Shown here: positions 4,608 to 11,231 of the stretch, piece after piece | Layout: the number at the start of each line of letters is the position of its first letter | Position numbering within the stretch: the stretch's first letter is position 1 | Notes under the pieces: generated by a model | Told to the model about the DNA's origin: nothing | Database searches by the model: none | The model's input: only the letters and a program-made list of their open reading frames with translations | Position numbers and translations under genes: made by a program | Source: Microbacterium paraoxydans | Lineage (GTDB): Bacteria; Actinomycetota; Actinomycetes; Actinomycetales; Microbacteriaceae | DNA length: 64,000 nt | Direction of reading: 5' to 3' | NCBI RefSeq assembly: GCF_019056515.1 | Contig: NZ_CP064873.1 | Location: 310,001 to 374,000, forward strand

Positions 4608-4621
4608 AACCAAATGGTTGC
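4608..4621. promoter_or_regulatory. Operator palindrome CAACCA-AA-TGGTTG over the ArsR start codon
   Basis: A perfect 6+2+6 bp inverted repeat covers the predicted transcription start and the ATG at 4614. This is the position expected for autorepression by the encoded ArsR protein, which would block initiation directly. Confidence 0.6.
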
Positions 4622-5021
4622 ACAAACGGAGTTGAGCGAAGCGGAGGTCGACCGTGTGTTCCACGCACTGGCGACGTCGACCCGGCGGGACATCCTGCGC
4701 CGGACGATCGAGCGGGAGCAGTCCGTCTCGACCCTCGCCTCGGAGTACGAGATGTCGTTCGCCGCGGTCCAGAAGCACGTGGCCGTGCTCGAGGCGGCGA
4801 ACCTCATCGTCAAGCGCGCCGAGGGACGCGAGCGGCTCGTCCGCGCGAACCCCGAGATGATCGCCCGCGCCAGGGCGCTCCTCGCCCGATACGAAGAGTT
4901 GTGGCGGTCGCGCATCGCCCGGCTCGACGATCTCCTGGCCGAGCCCTCCCCGCCCGCGGGAAAGAGACCGGCCTCCACCGACCCCACCAGCAGTCAACGC
5001 AACGAATCGCAAGGAGACTGA
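4614..5021 (+). CDS. ArsR family transcriptional regulator
   Basis: 135 aa. The winged helix spans about residues 10-90: VFHALATSTRRDILRR, TLASEYEMSFAAVQKHVAVLEAANLI (recognition helix) and the wing RAEGRERLVRAN. No paired cysteines are present for metal sensing, as expected for the ArsR subgroup paired with SRPBCC proteins. The start is leaderless behind a consensus promoter, and a palindrome over the start suggests autoregulation. The SRPBCC gene follows after one base, so they form an operon. It may also control the divergent MFS gene. Confidence 0.9.
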   Translation: MVAQTELSEAEVDRVFHALATSTRRDILRRTIEREQSVSTLASEYEMSFAAVQKHVAVLEAANLIVKRAEGRERLVRANPEMIARARALLARYEELWRSRIARLDDLLAEPSPPAGKRPASTDPTSSQRNESQGD

Positions 5022-5022
5022 C

Positions 5023-6000
5023 ATGCCTGTCACGGACATCATCACGGATGCCGAGAACCTCACCATGACCGTCGTCGCCGACCTCGCCGCGCCCGTCGAG
5101 CGCGTCTGGGCCGCCTACACCGACCCGCAGCAGCTCGAGCGGTTCTGGGGTCCTCCCGGCTGGCCGGCCACCTTCACCCGATGGGACCACACCGTCGGCG
5201 GGCGAGCCGTCTACACGATGAACGGTCCCCGCGGGGAGAAGGCCTCCGGCACGTGGGAGTTCCTGGAGATCGACGCGCCGCGCAGCTTCACGGTGCTCGA
5301 CTCGTTCGCCGACGAGGAGGGCACGCCGGATGCGAACCTCCCCTCCATGCGCATGACCTTCACGTTCGAGCCGACGGCCGAGGGCACACGCATGGTCAAC
5401 ACGAGCCACTTCACGTCTGCCGAGGCGCTCGAGCAGGTCGTCGCGATGGGTGCCGTTGAGGGCACCCGGATGGCCATGGCCCAGCTCGACGCCGTGTTGC
5501 AGGACCTCCGCGACTACGCGCAGGGCAAGGGCACGCGGGTGGAGCTGCTCGACGACACGCACGTGCGCATCACCCGCCTCGTCGAGGGTCCGCGCGAGCT
5601 GGTGTGGCGCGCCCACTTCGAGCCCGAACTCATCCGGCAGTGGATGCTCGGGCCGGACGGGTGGGAGATGACCGAGTGCGTGTCGGCGACCGAGGTCGGC
5701 CAGTCGTACCGGAACTCCTGGGCGCCCGTGGGCGACACGGAGGGTGAGCCGTTCGGATTCGAGGGGGAGGCACTGCTGATCGACGCCCCGAAGCGCGCCG
5801 TCACCACCGAGCGGATGCAGGGCATGTCGACCGAGACGCTCAACGACCTCAACCTCTACGAGGAGGACGGCGCGACCCTCGTCACGGTGCTCATCGAGTA
5901 TCCGGACAAGGAGACGCGCGACATGATCCTCGCCACCGGCATGGCCGACGGCATGGAGGCCTCGTTCGCGCGACTGGAGCGGGAGCTGCTGTCCGTCTGA
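5023..6000 (+). CDS. Tandem SRPBCC (AHSA1-like) domain protein
   Basis: 325 aa with two START/Bet v1-like domains: about residues 8-160 (VVADLAAPVERVWAAYTDPQQLERFWGP, ending in FARLE-type helix AMAQLDAVLQDL) and 170-325 (ITRLVEGPRELVWRAHFEPELIRQW to the end). Each domain has the W-G/P motif after the first strand typical of activator-of-Hsp90-like proteins. Such proteins bind hydrophobic ligands, and their coupling to ArsR regulators is a recurrent bacterial arrangement. A duplicated version in one chain is less usual. No catalytic residues can be named. The gene is followed by a strong terminator. Confidence 0.85.
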   Translation: MPVTDIITDAENLTMTVVADLAAPVERVWAAYTDPQQLERFWGPPGWPATFTRWDHTVGGRAVYTMNGPRGEKASGTWEFLEIDAPRSFTVLDSFADEEGTPDANLPSMRMTFTFEPTAEGTRMVNTSHFTSAEALEQVVAMGAVEGTRMAMAQLDAVLQDLRDYAQGKGTRVELLDDTHVRITRLVEGPRELVWRAHFEPELIRQWMLGPDGWEMTECVSATEVGQSYRNSWAPVGDTEGEPFGFEGEALLIDAPKRAVTTERMQGMSTETLNDLNLYEEDGATLVTVLIEYPDKETRDMILATGMADGMEASFARLERELLSV

Positions 6001-6095: not shown

Positions 6096-7448
6096 ATGAG
6101 GATCACGCGCCGTACCCTGCTCCTCGGCGCCGGAGCCGGTGCCGTCTCGGTGCTTCTCGCCTCCTGCACCCCGGAGCCGGAACCGACGCCGACCCCCACC
6201 CGCACGCGCGAACCGGAGCCGCCGCCCGGTGTCCCCGCCCCGAGCGGGAGCGTCCGCAGCACCTGGACCACCGACCCCTTCGCCCGGGGCGCCGCGAGCT
6301 TCACTCCCGTGGGGGTGCTCGCCGCGACCCGTGCGGCGCTCGCGCAGCCCGTCGACGACCGGCTCTTCTTCGCGGGCGAGGCGACCGACGACGAGGCGCC
6401 GGGTACCGTCCGGGGAGCCCTGCGGTCGGGCCGCCGCGCCGCGCGGGAACTCACCGTCGCCGCCGAGGACGGCGAGCGGGTGGCCGTGATCGGCGCCGGG
6501 ATCGCCGGAGCGACCGCCGCTGCGCAGCTCGCGGAGGACGGCCTGCAGGTGACGGTGTTCGAAGCGCGCGACCGCGTCGGCGGCCGGATCCTCTCCCGCG
6601 CGGACGAGGAGTGGCCGGTTCCGGTGCAGCTCGGCGCGTGGCTGTTCGGCGAGGCGGACGCGGAGCTTCTCGAGACGATCGACGAGGGGGACATGGACCT
6701 CGTCGACCTTGACGGGGCGCGGTGGCGCTCGGCCGAGGGCGATGTCGACCCCGTGGATCCGCAGCCGGTGGAGGCCGCGGTGACCACGGCGCAGTCCGCC
6801 CCGCAGGACTCCTCGGTGGCGGACGCCCTGGTGGCAGCCGGCATCGACCCGGAGGATCCCGCGACCGCCGCGCTCCTCGCGCTCCTCGCCGCACGGACCG
6901 GCGCGGACGCCGTCGACCTGTCGAGCTGGTTCGCCCCGCCACTCCCGGACGCGGCGCTGCAGGGGGTCGGCGACGACCTGACCCCGTTCATCGAGAGCAC
7001 CCTGGACGGGGTGAAAGTGGGGCTCAGCTCGCCGGTCACGCGCCTCGCGTGGGACGACACCGGGGTGAGTGTGCGCCTCGGCACCGGGGAGGCCCTCTCC
7101 TTCGACCGGGTGCTGCTGACGGTGCCGCTCGGGGTGCTGCAGGAGCAGGCCATCGAGTTCGATCCGCCGCTGCCGTTCGACAACCGCGGCGCCGTCTCCG
7201 CGCTCGGGATGGGCGCCATCGAGACGGTGTGGCTGCGATGGGACGAGCCGTTCTGGGACGGTGACGAGGCGATCTGGCACGCGGTCGGCGACGACATCGC
7301 GATCCCTACGTGGATCAACCTCCGCCCCTCGACCGGCGAGAACGTGCTCGTCGGGATCGTGGGCGGTGCGGCGGCCCGGGACTTCGCGGAGCTCGGGGAC
7401 GCGGAGGCCGTCGAGGCGGCACTCGCTTCGCTGGCGCTCTACGCCTGA
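6096..7448 (+). CDS. Exported lipoprotein flavin amine oxidase-like protein with circularly permuted domain order
   Basis: 450 aa. The N-terminus has RR at 5-6, a hydrophobic stretch and lipobox LASC (Cys24), so it looks like a Tat-exported lipoprotein, followed by a Pro/Glu/Thr-rich linker (25-52). Unusually, the segment that normally ends flavin amine oxidases comes first: WTTDPFARG (57-65), FFAGEAT (91-97) and GTVRGALRSGRRAA (103-116). The FAD-binding GAGIAG (133-138), the acidic Glu156 and RVGGR follow, then the substrate domain with VPLGVLQ. The protein stops right after the helix EAALASLALYA, exactly where the DPFARG part would normally begin. An FAD-dependent oxidase on the outer face of the membrane is the likely role; the substrate is unknown. 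TAAAGT (6081-6086) is a possible -10. Confidence 0.8.
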   Translation: MRITRRTLLLGAGAGAVSVLLASCTPEPEPTPTPTRTREPEPPPGVPAPSGSVRSTWTTDPFARGAASFTPVGVLAATRAALAQPVDDRLFFAGEATDDEAPGTVRGALRSGRRAARELTVAAEDGERVAVIGAGIAGATAAAQLAEDGLQVTVFEARDRVGGRILSRADEEWPVPVQLGAWLFGEADAELLETIDEGDMDLVDLDGARWRSAEGDVDPVDPQPVEAAVTTAQSAPQDSSVADALVAAGIDPEDPATAALLALLAARTGADAVDLSSWFAPPLPDAALQGVGDDLTPFIESTLDGVKVGLSSPVTRLAWDDTGVSVRLGTGEALSFDRVLLTVPLGVLQEQAIEFDPPLPFDNRGAVSALGMGAIETVWLRWDEPFWDGDEAIWHAVGDDIAIPTWINLRPSTGENVLVGIVGGAAARDFAELGDAEAVEAALASLALYA

Positions 7449-8137
7449 ACCGGCTCGCGCGCGGCCTCGGCCGGGGCGCGGTCCTCGGGAGGAGGCTCGG
7501 CAGGAGCGCGGTCCCACGGGTCCGGCAGGCGGCTGATGAGCACGAGCGCGGTCGCCACGGCGGCGAACACGGCCAGCGCGATCGCGCAGGAGACGGTGAA
7601 CTCGACGGGACCGCTCACCTGCCGCGGGTCGAGGAAGTAGTACGGGTACCAGCCGATCAACGGTCCGCGGATGAGCGTCGCGACGCCCCACAGCACCGGG
7701 TAGGCGAGGGTCACCGGGATCACGCGCCACGGCACCGCCCGATGCCCCGGGGCCAGGGCCCAGGCCGCGACGGTCACCGCGGGCAGCCAGAAGTGCAGCA
7801 CCTGATCCGACCACGGCACGTCGATGCGGATCCCCCGGACTCCGGCCTGCCAGACGAGGATCGCGAACACGAGTCCCGCCGTGATCGTCCAGGTGAGCAC
7901 GAGGGCGAGCGCCACCGTGAGCCACCGCGGGTCGCGGGCTCTCCTCAGCGCGAGGACTCCGGCGACGGTGAGGAGGACGACGAAGGCGATGTTCGACTGG
8001 TTCGTCAGGTACGCGAAGAAGTTCTGGCTCGCGATGGTGTTCGACGCGAGTCCCCACGCGAGGCGGTGGATCAGCGCGACGAGGCAGACGGCGGCGGCGG
8101 TGAGCCGGAGCAGGCCGAAGACGGTGCGCCTGCTCAC
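7439..8137 (-). CDS. Pr6Pr-like membrane protein
   Basis: 232 aa from a GTG at 8137 with a GAGG site; another GTG at 8212 would add 25 charged residues. Six membrane helices are visible. The pattern LTNQSNIAF after helix 1, VLHFWLPA in the middle, and YPYYFLDP before the last helix is typical of the Pr6Pr family (related to FAR-17a/AIG1 proteins). The function is unknown. The C-terminus is a soluble Pro/Ala/Glu-rich tail. The 3' end overlaps the convergent oxidase gene by 10 bp. Confidence 0.75.
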   Translation of the reverse strand: MSRRTVFGLLRLTAAAVCLVALIHRLAWGLASNTIASQNFFAYLTNQSNIAFVVLLTVAGVLALRRARDPRWLTVALALVLTWTITAGLVFAILVWQAGVRGIRIDVPWSDQVLHFWLPAVTVAAWALAPGHRAVPWRVIPVTLAYPVLWGVATLIRGPLIGWYPYYFLDPRQVSGPVEFTVSCAIALAVFAAVATALVLISRLPDPWDRAPAEPPPEDRAPAEAAREPVQA

Positions 8138-8276
8138 CGTCGCCTCGTCCTTTCCGCCATCCGCCGAGTCTACGGAGCCGACCCGGGGTGACGCCGCATC
8201 AGGCCGCCGCACGGGTTCAGGCGTGGCTGGGGGTGGGGGCCTGTTCTCGCGCGAAGGCCTGCTCTCGCGGGGTGGG

Positions 8277-8663
8277 TCAGCGGCGCGGAGCGCGCGTCGA
8301 CCACAGGGCCAGCGCGATGAGCGCCGGCTGGAAGAACAGACGCACGAAGCGCTTCATGTCGGTGTCGAGGCCGAAGCCGTCGCGATGATGCATCCACTGC
8401 GCCACGTTGCCCGGGAAGACCGCGGCGAAGAAGAGCGCGGCGACGGTGCCGACCGTGCGACGGCGGCGTCGGGCGAAGAGGAGAGCGGAGCCGAGCGCGA
8501 CCTCGGCGACGCCGGACGCGAGCACCGTGGTGTCGGGATCGAGCGGCAGCGATTCCGGCACCTGAGCCTGGAATTCCTCGCGGGCGAACGTGAGGTGGGA
8601 GACGCCGGCGAACACGAGCGAGGCGCCGAGGAAGATCCGGCCGATGGTGCGGGGAGTCGACAT
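8277..8663 (-). CDS. DoxX-like small membrane protein
   Basis: 128 aa with four predicted helices. The opening RIFLGASLVFAGVSHLTFAREEFQ and the central SGVAEVALGSALLFARRRR match the DoxX/DoxD-like family. The motif NVAQWMHHRDGFG also occurs in this family. Members are associated with redox or thiosulfate-related functions, but no specific role can be assigned. TACACT 6 nt before the ATG suggests a leaderless transcript. The gene follows the RNase H gene after 28 bp on the same strand. Confidence 0.75.
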   Translation of the reverse strand: MSTPRTIGRIFLGASLVFAGVSHLTFAREEFQAQVPESLPLDPDTTVLASGVAEVALGSALLFARRRRRTVGTVAALFFAAVFPGNVAQWMHHRDGFGLDTDMKRFVRLFFQPALIALALWSTRAPRR

Positions 8664-9874: not shown

Positions 9875-10186
9875 TCACTCCGAGCGCGCGGCCTCCCGCA
9901 CGGCGTCGACGAGGGTGCGCCACGGACCGTCCACGGCGGAGTCGGGCAGCTCCCGCTCCCGACGCTCGGACGGGGTGCGGGCGCGGATGCTCCAGACGAA
10001 CCGGTCGGCCCCGGGCTCCGTGTCGACGTCGTCGTCCCAGGGGCAGCTGTCGATGAGGCCGATCCATTCCTCGGCGTCCGGCGGCTCGGCCTCCACCCGC
10101 CACTGGCGACGGATGCCGGCGAGACCTCCCGAGCGCACGACGGCGATGACGACAGGGGCGTCAGGCGGCGTCGGGTCCTCGGTCAT
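9875..10186 (-). CDS. Emfourin-type protease inhibitor
   Basis: 103 aa. The second of two nearby ATGs (10186) is chosen because GGGAG lies 9 nt before it and only 3 nt before the first (10192). The core VVIAVVRSGGLAGIRRQWRVE and the later SCPWDDD match emfourin, the inhibitor of protealysin-like M4 proteases. The gene overlaps the 3' end of the upstream M4 peptidase by 26 bp. A protease-inhibitor pair in one operon is the known arrangement, which supports the call. The protein is cytoplasmic. Confidence 0.8.
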   Translation of the reverse strand: MTEDPTPPDAPVVIAVVRSGGLAGIRRQWRVEAEPPDAEEWIGLIDSCPWDDDVDTEPGADRFVWSIRARTPSERRERELPDSAVDGPWRTLVDAVREAARSE

Positions 10187-11231
10187 CCTCATAGACTCCC
10201 ACGGTCGTCCACGCGCGTCGAGCGGCGGCGACCGCCTCCTCATCGACGGAGGCTGCGGCGGCGACCGTGGCATCGGCGAACTCGGTGAAGGTCGCGGTGC
10301 TCGCCAGTCCGCCGGTGAGTGCCCGGTACCAGACCGTGCCGGCGCGCTCCCAGGCGTTGCCGCCGAGGTCGAGGGCGAAGAGGGCGAAGGCGCGGTTCGG
10401 GATGCCGGAGTTGATGTGCACGCCCCCGTTGTCCTCGGTGGTGCGCACGAATCCGCTCATGTGGTCCGGCTGCGGGTCTTTCCCGAGTTCATCGTCGTCG
10501 TAGGCCGTGCCCGGCGCGATCATGGAGCGCAGGGCTGAGCCCTCCACCGCATCCGTGAAGATCTCCGCCCCGATGAGCCAGCTCGCCTGGTCGGCGGACT
10601 GCCCCAGGGCGTACTGCTCGGTGAGGGCGCCGAACACGTCGGCCACGGACTCGTTCAGTGCGCCCGGCTGGCCCTGATACTCCAGGTTCGCCGTGTGCTG
10701 CACGACACCGTGGGCGAGCTCATGCCCGATCACGGTGAGCGAGCCGGTGAAGTGCTGGAACACCTCGCCGTCGCCGTCGCCGAACACCATGCGCTCGCCG
10801 TCCCAGAACGCGTTGTCGTAGTCGACGCCGTAGTGGACGGTCGCGTCGAGAGGAGCGCCGGCGTCGTCGAGCGAGTTGCGGCCGAACGCGGAGAGCAGCA
10901 TCTCGAATGTCGCGCCCAGGCCGTCGAACGCCTCGTTGACGGCGGTGTCGGCGACGGGCTCATCGTCTTCCGTGCGGACCACGGCCCCCGGGAGCTGCTG
11001 GGTGTTGCCGGCGTCGCTGATCGTGCGGTTCGGCGCATCCGAGAGCTGCGCGACGAGGTCGCCGTTCTCGTCGATGGAGAGGTCGATGCGGGCGCGGAAC
11101 GGCGGGCGCCCCGCGGTGAGCGTCTGCCGGGCGGCGGCGGCGGCCTTCGGGAACCGACCCGACTCCGCCAGTCGGGCGAGCAGGTAGGAGGGGACGACGC
11201 CGGGGTGCGGGAAGGATTCTGCGCTGCTCAT
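10161..11231 (-). CDS. M4 family metallopeptidase (protealysin-like)
   Basis: 356 aa, thermolysin family. The zinc motif HELAH is at 170-174, with the third ligand Glu194 in GALNESVADVFG and the catalytic-site His272 in GGVHINSG. A short N-terminal propeptide precedes the catalytic domain and includes PSYLLARLAESG, as in protealysin. No signal peptide is present, so it probably stays in the cytoplasm or leaves by another route. The 3' end overlaps its inhibitor gene. TAGGGT 6 nt before the ATG suggests a leaderless transcript. Confidence 0.88.
   Translation of the reverse strand: MSSAESFPHPGVVPSYLLARLAESGRFPKAAAAARQTLTAGRPPFRARIDLSIDENGDLVAQLSDAPNRTISDAGNTQQLPGAVVRTEDDEPVADTAVNEAFDGLGATFEMLLSAFGRNSLDDAGAPLDATVHYGVDYDNAFWDGERMVFGDGDGEVFQHFTGSLTVIGHELAHGVVQHTANLEYQGQPGALNESVADVFGALTEQYALGQSADQASWLIGAEIFTDAVEGSALRSMIAPGTAYDDDELGKDPQPDHMSGFVRTTEDNGGVHINSGIPNRAFALFALDLGGNAWERAGTVWYRALTGGLASTATFTEFADATVAAAASVDEEAVAAARRAWTTVGVYEDDRGPDAA

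Follow-up and report, generated by a model that had tools for sequence, protein, structure and literature searches.

The window analysed here is a stretch of 64,000 nucleotides from Microbacterium paraoxydans (C1:310001-374000 in genome coordinates), and its forward strand carries at 6096..7448 an open reading frame of 450 residues plus stop for a flavin amine oxidase-type lipoprotein whose conserved segments stand in circularly permuted order, as judged by profile matches, homologues and a structure model. The protein begins with a twin-arginine translocation (Tat) signal, MRITRRTLLLGAGAG..., that closes in the lipobox LASC at Cys24 (6096..6167; read from the sequence and its conservation in relatives). 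Signal and lipobox together read MRITRRTLLLGAGAGAVSVLLASC and are followed by a Pro/Thr-rich stalk (residues 25-50, 6168..6245); model confidence is low at residues 1-40. Next comes the segment that elsewhere forms the C-terminus of flavin amine oxidases, at residues 51-121 (6246..6458; RSTWTTDP, FFAGEAT and the GTVRGAL helix), which matches PF01593 positions 368-442 and LSD2 699-773 and is modelled with a predicted local distance difference test score (pLDDT) of 96-98. The Rossmann start of the flavin adenine dinucleotide (FAD)-binding domain appears after it, at residues 126-168 (6471..6599; GAGIAG and EARDRVGGR; PF01593 1-68, PF13450 and PF01266). It is succeeded by a diverged substrate-domain region (residues 169-300, 6600..6995; mostly without a Pfam match, block pLDDT 88-98) and by the central FAD/substrate part (residues 301-447, 6996..7436; DRVLLTVPLGVL..., PF01593 212-362). 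All of these features lie on the forward strand, as does the Thr377 codon (7224..7226), which sequence and alignments place at the conserved flavin-N5 lysine position (GAIETVWL, aligned with GIIEKIAL of LSD2).

Searches with hmmscan gave the window protein a PF01593 (Amino_oxidase) total of 182.4 bits, with the profile positions following one another along the chain as 368-442, 1-68 and 212-362 and not in the canonical segment order. The genome search placed the three pieces in stop-free frames at C1:316228-316452 (57.9 bits), C1:316501-316710 (47.4 bits) and C1:316996-317436 (81.5 bits), each far over the cut-off of 19.8 bits. In the phmmer comparison with LSD2, query residues 126-167, 284-446 and 45-119 pair with chain positions 336-377, 524-691 and 699-773, and the same three blocks stand in the usual order in LSD2. 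Both the Rossmann GxGxxG and the C-terminal GE motif for FAD are present (GAGIAG, FFAGEAT). The motif positions listed in the first-pass annotation of this DNA were accurate (WTTDPFARG 57-65, FFAGEAT 91-97, GTVRGAL 103-109, GAGIAG 133-138), and its reading of a circular permutation, as opposed to truncation or duplication, is borne out by the three-piece PF01593 order, by the same join in relatives and by the finding that no part is doubled. Its statement that all blocks are present holds for the FAD-binding parts; the substrate-binding middle part (PF01593 positions 69-211) is there in the window protein, but has diverged too far for a Pfam match.

The join between the old chain ends can be read in relatives of both orders. 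The canonical protein P0311 passes unbroken through it (...VLRTIYG-DDIPEPNDWQITRW...; over a longer stretch, VLRTIYGDDIPEPNDWQITRW), and the permuted protein P0298 stops at ...VLRTIYA and restarts after its signal at GVPDPIGYVITRW. Permuted proteins P0298, P0313, P0321 and P0349 all end near VLRTIYG or its equivalent and start, after the signal, with GVPDP or GIPDP, the sequence TRW following a few residues later. The window protein ends in ...LASLALYA and starts at GVPAPSGSVRSTW, which is the same join as in the permuted relatives; set against canonical P0311, these ends agree with the earlier proposal that the protein stops where the displaced segment would normally begin. The join was alike wherever it was read among permuted proteins, with the new ends at one loop and the old ends joined, and no protein with two end segments was found among the 239 classified of the 241 given to the classifier. 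The old chain ends lie near each other in the flavin amine oxidase fold, and in our model helix 105-122 and strand 128-132 are separated by a short gap, which is consistent with this.

A search for the same order within Microbacterium, suggested earlier as a check, found it in 57 of 149 same-genus genomes, the source genome included (E at most 7.7e-98; the matches begin at residue 1 or 2 and extend to residue 346 or beyond), together with two further same-genus fragments at contig ends (G103, G108). At G083:C1:2255177-2256539 the match to the permuted gene is broken into residues 1-346 and an overlapping piece, 343-450, in separate open frames, and so represents a recent frameshift or sequencing error. 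Amongst 120 listed protein relatives, aligned over 84-100% of the query, the FAGE segment precedes the Rossmann motif in 116 by a motif rule; in the remaining four, one or both of the regular expressions had no match. The ratio of nonsynonymous to synonymous substitution (dN/dS) was 0.214-0.268 against five homologues, synonymous change being about four-fold the amino-acid change, and selection on the permuted gene is purifying.

A structure model built from 105 permuted relatives of both branches of the family (Microbacteriaceae-type and alphaproteobacterial-type) reached a pLDDT of 92.3 and a predicted template modelling score (pTM) of 0.87, and was used instead of an earlier, weak model from 44 close sequences (pLDDT 65.1, pTM 0.61). 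Foldseek and VIA-align both matched it to the flavin amine oxidase fold. The FAD-contact motifs were invariant across the 105 aligned permuted rows, and FAD binding is therefore expected throughout them. A frameshift, chimera or assembly error behind the unusual order, a concern raised in the first-pass annotation, can be dismissed as having next to no probability, given the same join in many independent relatives, the stop-free frame and a dN/dS near 0.2. Altogether, a permuted flavin amine oxidase fold in the window protein is close to certain, and its motifs make it very probable that the protein binds FAD.

A scan of named genomes detected permuted relatives in Herbiconiux, Cryobacterium, Rathayibacter, Leifsonia, Agromyces and Frigoribacterium and, unexpectedly, in Erythrobacter. 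For wider sampling, a join profile of 126 positions (end segment plus Rossmann start) was used, which tells the two orders clearly apart: a permuted gene is matched from about position 2 to position 103-126 with E below 1e-27, and a canonical gene gives separate half matches. By this profile, the permuted gene is present in at least 62 of 199 sampled Microbacteriaceae genomes and in at least 28 of 85 genera. Seven genomes in an Actinomycetota sample of 246 were matched, six with the permuted and one with the canonical form (L145); two of the six are Microbacteriaceae and the other four come from three other families (L140-L143). Among Alphaproteobacteria the permuted form is common in sequence collections: among the matches listed for the Erythrobacter protein, 120 of 120 were permuted (motif rule), and those with names were Alphaproteobacteria or plain Pseudomonadota. 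In genome samples it was thinly spread, being found in 2 of 240 genomes for the class and in 5 of 296 for the order, with the Erythrobacter genome itself counted each time. With canonical L145 as query, the 120 matches listed comprised 114 canonical and 6 permuted proteins, three of the latter named Actinomycetota, Acidimicrobiales or Acidimicrobiia. The flavin amine oxidase family thus has a natural branch with circularly permuted order, found in both Actinomycetota and Alphaproteobacteria. The permuted form was found in 0 of 185 Gammaproteobacteria and 0 of 119 Acidobacteriota, and in none of 181 Chloroflexota, where three partial matches stop at profile positions 73-95, two of them across a stop; each of these three samples held no genome known to carry one. 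Six candidates for distant permuted forms at 30-35% identity (G011, G028, G047, G064, G106, G107) were all canonical by the profile classifier; five of them show the Rossmann start first and the GE motif late, and in the sixth (L118, from G064) the motif rule missed the end segment. Demequina L066 likewise proved to have canonical order.

The shared breakpoint makes one origin of the permutation the better bet, and we consider a single origin probable; the event would most likely have been a tandem duplication plus trimming of the mature domain behind a retained Tat signal. The alternative is that one hot-spot loop was the site of repeated permutation. In favour of this alternative, a quick tree needed two order changes and a careful tree of 58 rows three, FastTree placed P0321, P0289, P0298 and L142 beside canonical rows, and the permuted rows formed one group in 0 of 200 bootstrap trees, which counts against a single origin. 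However, holding the 27 permuted rows together made the tree worse by just 6.0 log-likelihood units, with a p-value of 0.42 in the approximately unbiased test (p-AU); one origin is therefore neither rejected nor shown by the trees. The permuted proteins that were read also share a similar breakpoint and a PxPxG-like start, and we regard repeated permutation as the lesser probability. As a side observation, one alphaproteobacterial genome (G1592) carries a tandem pair of permuted genes (L163 6328-8814); tandem copies of this kind are a type of intermediate that can give rise to permutations.

The export signal and lipid anchor of the window protein were also examined across relatives. The twin Arg at 5-6, the hydrophobic stretch and the LASC ending at Cys24 are Tat lipoprotein features; T4, R5, R6 and C24 were invariant in 44 chosen sequences, and a crude rule found Tat plus lipobox in 112 of the 121 proteins of the group, the other nine having late or missing starts. 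On this sequence reading the Tat/lipoprotein anchor, which had been recognised in the first-pass annotation, is real. The same annotation had suggested that the permutation exists so that the anchor can attach without blocking the active site. The new N-terminus does lie at the anchor and stalk in Microbacteriaceae, but Tat-like starts are also seen in relatives of canonical order, such as P0251, P0253 and P0311 (86 of 114 by the first rule, 83 of 114 by a stricter one that excludes matches within the FAD motif), 34 of the 114 carry a lipobox-like motif, and the permuted proteins of alphaproteobacterial type, Tat-like in 86 of 120 cases, are lipobox-like in only 3 of 120. The suggestion did not survive this comparison and is now very improbable; likelier is a rotation of the mature part behind a signal that was already present. 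Six further permuted proteins of actinobacterial type were Tat-like in four cases and lipobox-like in one; two of the six (P0289, P0314) start without an evident signal, and their starts may be misannotated.

The two branches differ in their active-site residues. The family lysine hydrogen-bonds via water to flavin N5, and its position is occupied by Lys in 65 of 65 alphaproteobacterial-type rows but in only 2 of 40 Microbacteriaceae-type rows, namely Cryobacterium L050 and L056, the latter from a metagenome-assembled genome (MAG). Thr stands there in 33 of the 40, including the window protein (Thr377); one of the 40 rows, L047, comes from a MAG named only Actinomycetota. Lys is retained in the permuted actinobacterial proteins L140-L143 and in the four canonical relatives that were read for it (L145, P0280, P0311, P0352). 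At the aromatic-cage position, which we take to be that of LSD1 Tyr761 and of an aligned Phe in LSD2, 53 of the 65 alphaproteobacterial-type rows carry Tyr and 8 carry His; the window protein has Ala101 there, and of the 40 Microbacteriaceae-type rows none carries Tyr, Phe or Trp and 5 carry His. With Thr377 and Ala101, the window protein therefore lacks two features of the flavin amine oxidase enzyme class (the N5 lysine and the cage aromatic), and the name 'amine oxidase' appears doubtful for it. Where sources name members of the permuted family, they mostly use 'flavin monoamine oxidase family protein' or 'FAD-dependent oxidoreductase', and the former is probably misleading for the Microbacteriaceae branch. 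From Thr377 we lean, if only slightly, towards predicting poor O2 reactivity for the window protein.

Downstream of the permuted gene, on the reverse strand at 7439..8212, lies the gene of a Pr6Pr family membrane protein (NF038065, E 5e-28), convergent with it and overlapping its end by 10 bases. Pr6Pr is directly downstream and convergent in 58 of the 62 Microbacteriaceae genomes with the permuted gene, and in all 58 that neighbour is the best match in the genome to the window Pr6Pr. In the four exceptions, the best match lies on another contig (G192, G322), is a single weaker one (G186, 4e-20) or is missing (G160). Pr6Pr proteins are common in general (158 of 199 genomes), so that presence alone means little; among the 64 top Pr6Pr rows, only four come from genomes without the permuted gene. 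In G177, G238, G155 and G300 the join profile detected no permuted gene although each has a close Pr6Pr relative, which makes them useful exceptions to the link. Across 57 loci, 29 of which span only about 1.5 kb of flank, Pr6Pr was kept in 52 and the next most persistent genuine neighbour in 14. A looser cut found it in 53 of 56 loci (L010-L065), in the same direction as the FAD gene in L044 and 5 kb off in L043, with misses in L046, L064 (contig end) and the alphaproteobacterial L065. The Pr6Pr linkage and the lysine loss fall in the same branch, the Microbacteriaceae. The dull alternative for the linkage is slow gene-order change.

Pr6Pr carries an invariant Thr and His reminiscent of the AIG1-like hydrolase family. 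An assignment as a Far-17a/AIG1 membrane hydrolase was rejected: PF04750 did not match Pr6Pr, and its only match in the genome reached 12.2 bits, at another place, against a cut-off of 24.5. In Pfam, Pr6Pr had only a 14.7-bit match to another family, under that family's cut-off; its profile found no match among solved structures, and the term was not found in the literature searched. Amongst the other neighbours, a small membrane protein follows Pr6Pr at 8277-8663 on the reverse strand (MauE 27.2 bits, cut-off 27; DoxX 24.5, cut-off 23.6), and a gene of this MauE/DoxX type is present in 11 of 57 related loci. Upstream, at 4614-6000 on the forward strand, lie an ArsR-type regulator gene (12 of 57 loci) and a double AHSA1 (SRPBCC) gene (14 of 57), both shared with close relatives. 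A reading frame with HELAH at 10161-11231 on the reverse strand may encode a thermolysin-like metalloprotease, to judge by the motif. Of six alphaproteobacterial loci, L163 and L164 share two neighbouring genes and L163 and L166 a single weak match (31%); no others were shared, too few to derive a function from gene context.

The explanation that we favour for the whole, by a cautious judgement, is that the Microbacteriaceae branch is an anchored, permuted FAD protein that has turned from oxidase towards dehydrogenase. In this widespread family the C-terminal FAD-closing segment stands between the export signal and the Rossmann start, with the new ends at a former connecting loop; the FAD site would close as before because the old ends lie near each other in the fold. 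The protein would fold with FAD in the cytoplasm, exit by Tat and be lipid-anchored outside the membrane. The Microbacteriaceae would later have lost the flavin-N5 lysine and the aromatic-cage residue, and the result would most likely be a flavin dehydrogenase with an electron acceptor other than O2 and a non-classical substrate that is possibly not an amine; the tail-to-tail Pr6Pr membrane protein is its best candidate partner. For this branch, a dehydrogenase with a changed substrate would be the likeliest function, an ordinary oxidase the second and a pseudoenzyme the third.

Observations on related enzymes and on the gene's neighbours bear on this explanation in both directions. In monoamine oxidase A (MAO A), according to the accessible part of PMC8009472, the same lysine governs the oxygen reaction, with kcat 200-fold lower in K305M and 100-fold lower in K305S, while K305M still oxidises substrate and K305Q is as active as wild type; lysine loss alone is therefore no proof of dehydrogenase function. 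NicA2 and Pnao are family members that pass electrons to cytochrome c and not to O2 (PMC9396064, PMC12272882, as far as these sources were open to us), though NicA2-type dehydrogenases are described as keeping the lysine, as Lys340 (PMC12272882). Against the explanation, the six neighbours scanned (MFS, ArsR-type, AHSA1, Pr6Pr, DoxX/MauE and RNase H; all six in Pfam, five also in NCBIfam) included no cytochrome c gene, six 13-14 kb regions surrounding permuted genes of other groups than Microbacteriaceae showed no Pr6Pr, and the same residues would also fit a total loss of activity. Additionally, the convergent genes share no transcript, so that a functional tie between the permuted protein and Pr6Pr is offered as a hypothesis, plausible but short of probable. 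The more specific proposal of a two-gene membrane redox module in Microbacteriaceae, in which Pr6Pr would accept electrons from the lipid-anchored dehydrogenase or handle a lipid-like substrate, is unlikely enough to be called speculative.

The strongest rival is a working secreted amine oxidase, in which the permutation was neutral, another residue replaces the lysine and an amine is oxidised with release of H2O2 outside the cell. The overall fold and FAD motifs are kept, the lysine persists throughout the alphaproteobacterial-type permuted rows and L140-L143, most of the alphaproteobacterial-type rows have Tyr or His in the cage, and the K305Q variant retains wild-type activity (PMC8009472, accessible part). 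However, Thr377 is short, kcat fell 100-fold in the K305S variant of MAO A, and none of the 40 Microbacteriaceae-type rows has Tyr, Phe or Trp in the cage; for this branch we judge the rival rather unlikely. A FAD-binding pseudoenzyme, with a decayed active site and an anchored protein kept for binding or structure, would account for the lysine missing in 38 of 40 and the cage Tyr, Phe or Trp in 40 of 40 rows. Residues nearby in sequence are nevertheless firmly held (W379 in 40 of 40, W394 in 36 of 40) and selection is purifying, which points to a site that has changed and is not idle, and a pseudoenzyme seems improbable.

The permuted family is broader than first noted, and its Microbacteriaceae sub-branch mostly lacks the oxygen-linked lysine and has kept one membrane-protein neighbour. 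If the proposal of a two-gene redox module is true, the family records in living species a permutation, then a loss of oxygen use, then the capture of a membrane partner. To our knowledge, natural circular permutation is uncommon in large cofactor enzymes, and our literature search, which left subscription papers and preprints outside, found no title on such a permutation of flavin amine oxidases. Here it affects a flavoenzyme fold that is among the best studied (MAO, LSD1, polyamine oxidase), extends over two phyla and comes with a natural Lys-to-Thr series at the residue thought to govern the oxygen reaction. The family thus allows the tolerance of such enzymes to re-wiring, and their loss of oxygen reactivity, to be studied in nature.

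Amongst known systems, the closest solved sequences are LSD1/LSD2 (KDM1A/KDM1B) and plant polyamine oxidase, which have the same fold and the same FAD motifs; the window protein differs from them in its permuted order, in Thr for Lys, in Ala for the cage aromatic, in its diverged substrate domain and in being a Tat lipoprotein. NicA2 and Pnao (PMC9396064, PMC12272882) belong to the same family and deliver electrons to a non-O2 acceptor, and they serve as the working model proposed for the window protein; they differ in having an operon-partner cytochrome c and a kept lysine, and the accessible parts of these two papers do not mention permutation. The canonical bacterial relatives (L145 and 114 of P0242-P0361), named where named at all 'FAD-dependent oxidoreductase', 'monoamine oxidase' or 'hypothetical protein', are the nearest canonical proteins in the trees, are often Tat-like and have the same loop at the join, but their Rossmann start comes first and their FFAGE segment last. 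These near relatives, in which the join can be seen, form natural pairs with the permuted proteins in which FAD loading, Tat folding checks and active-site closure can be set against chain order.
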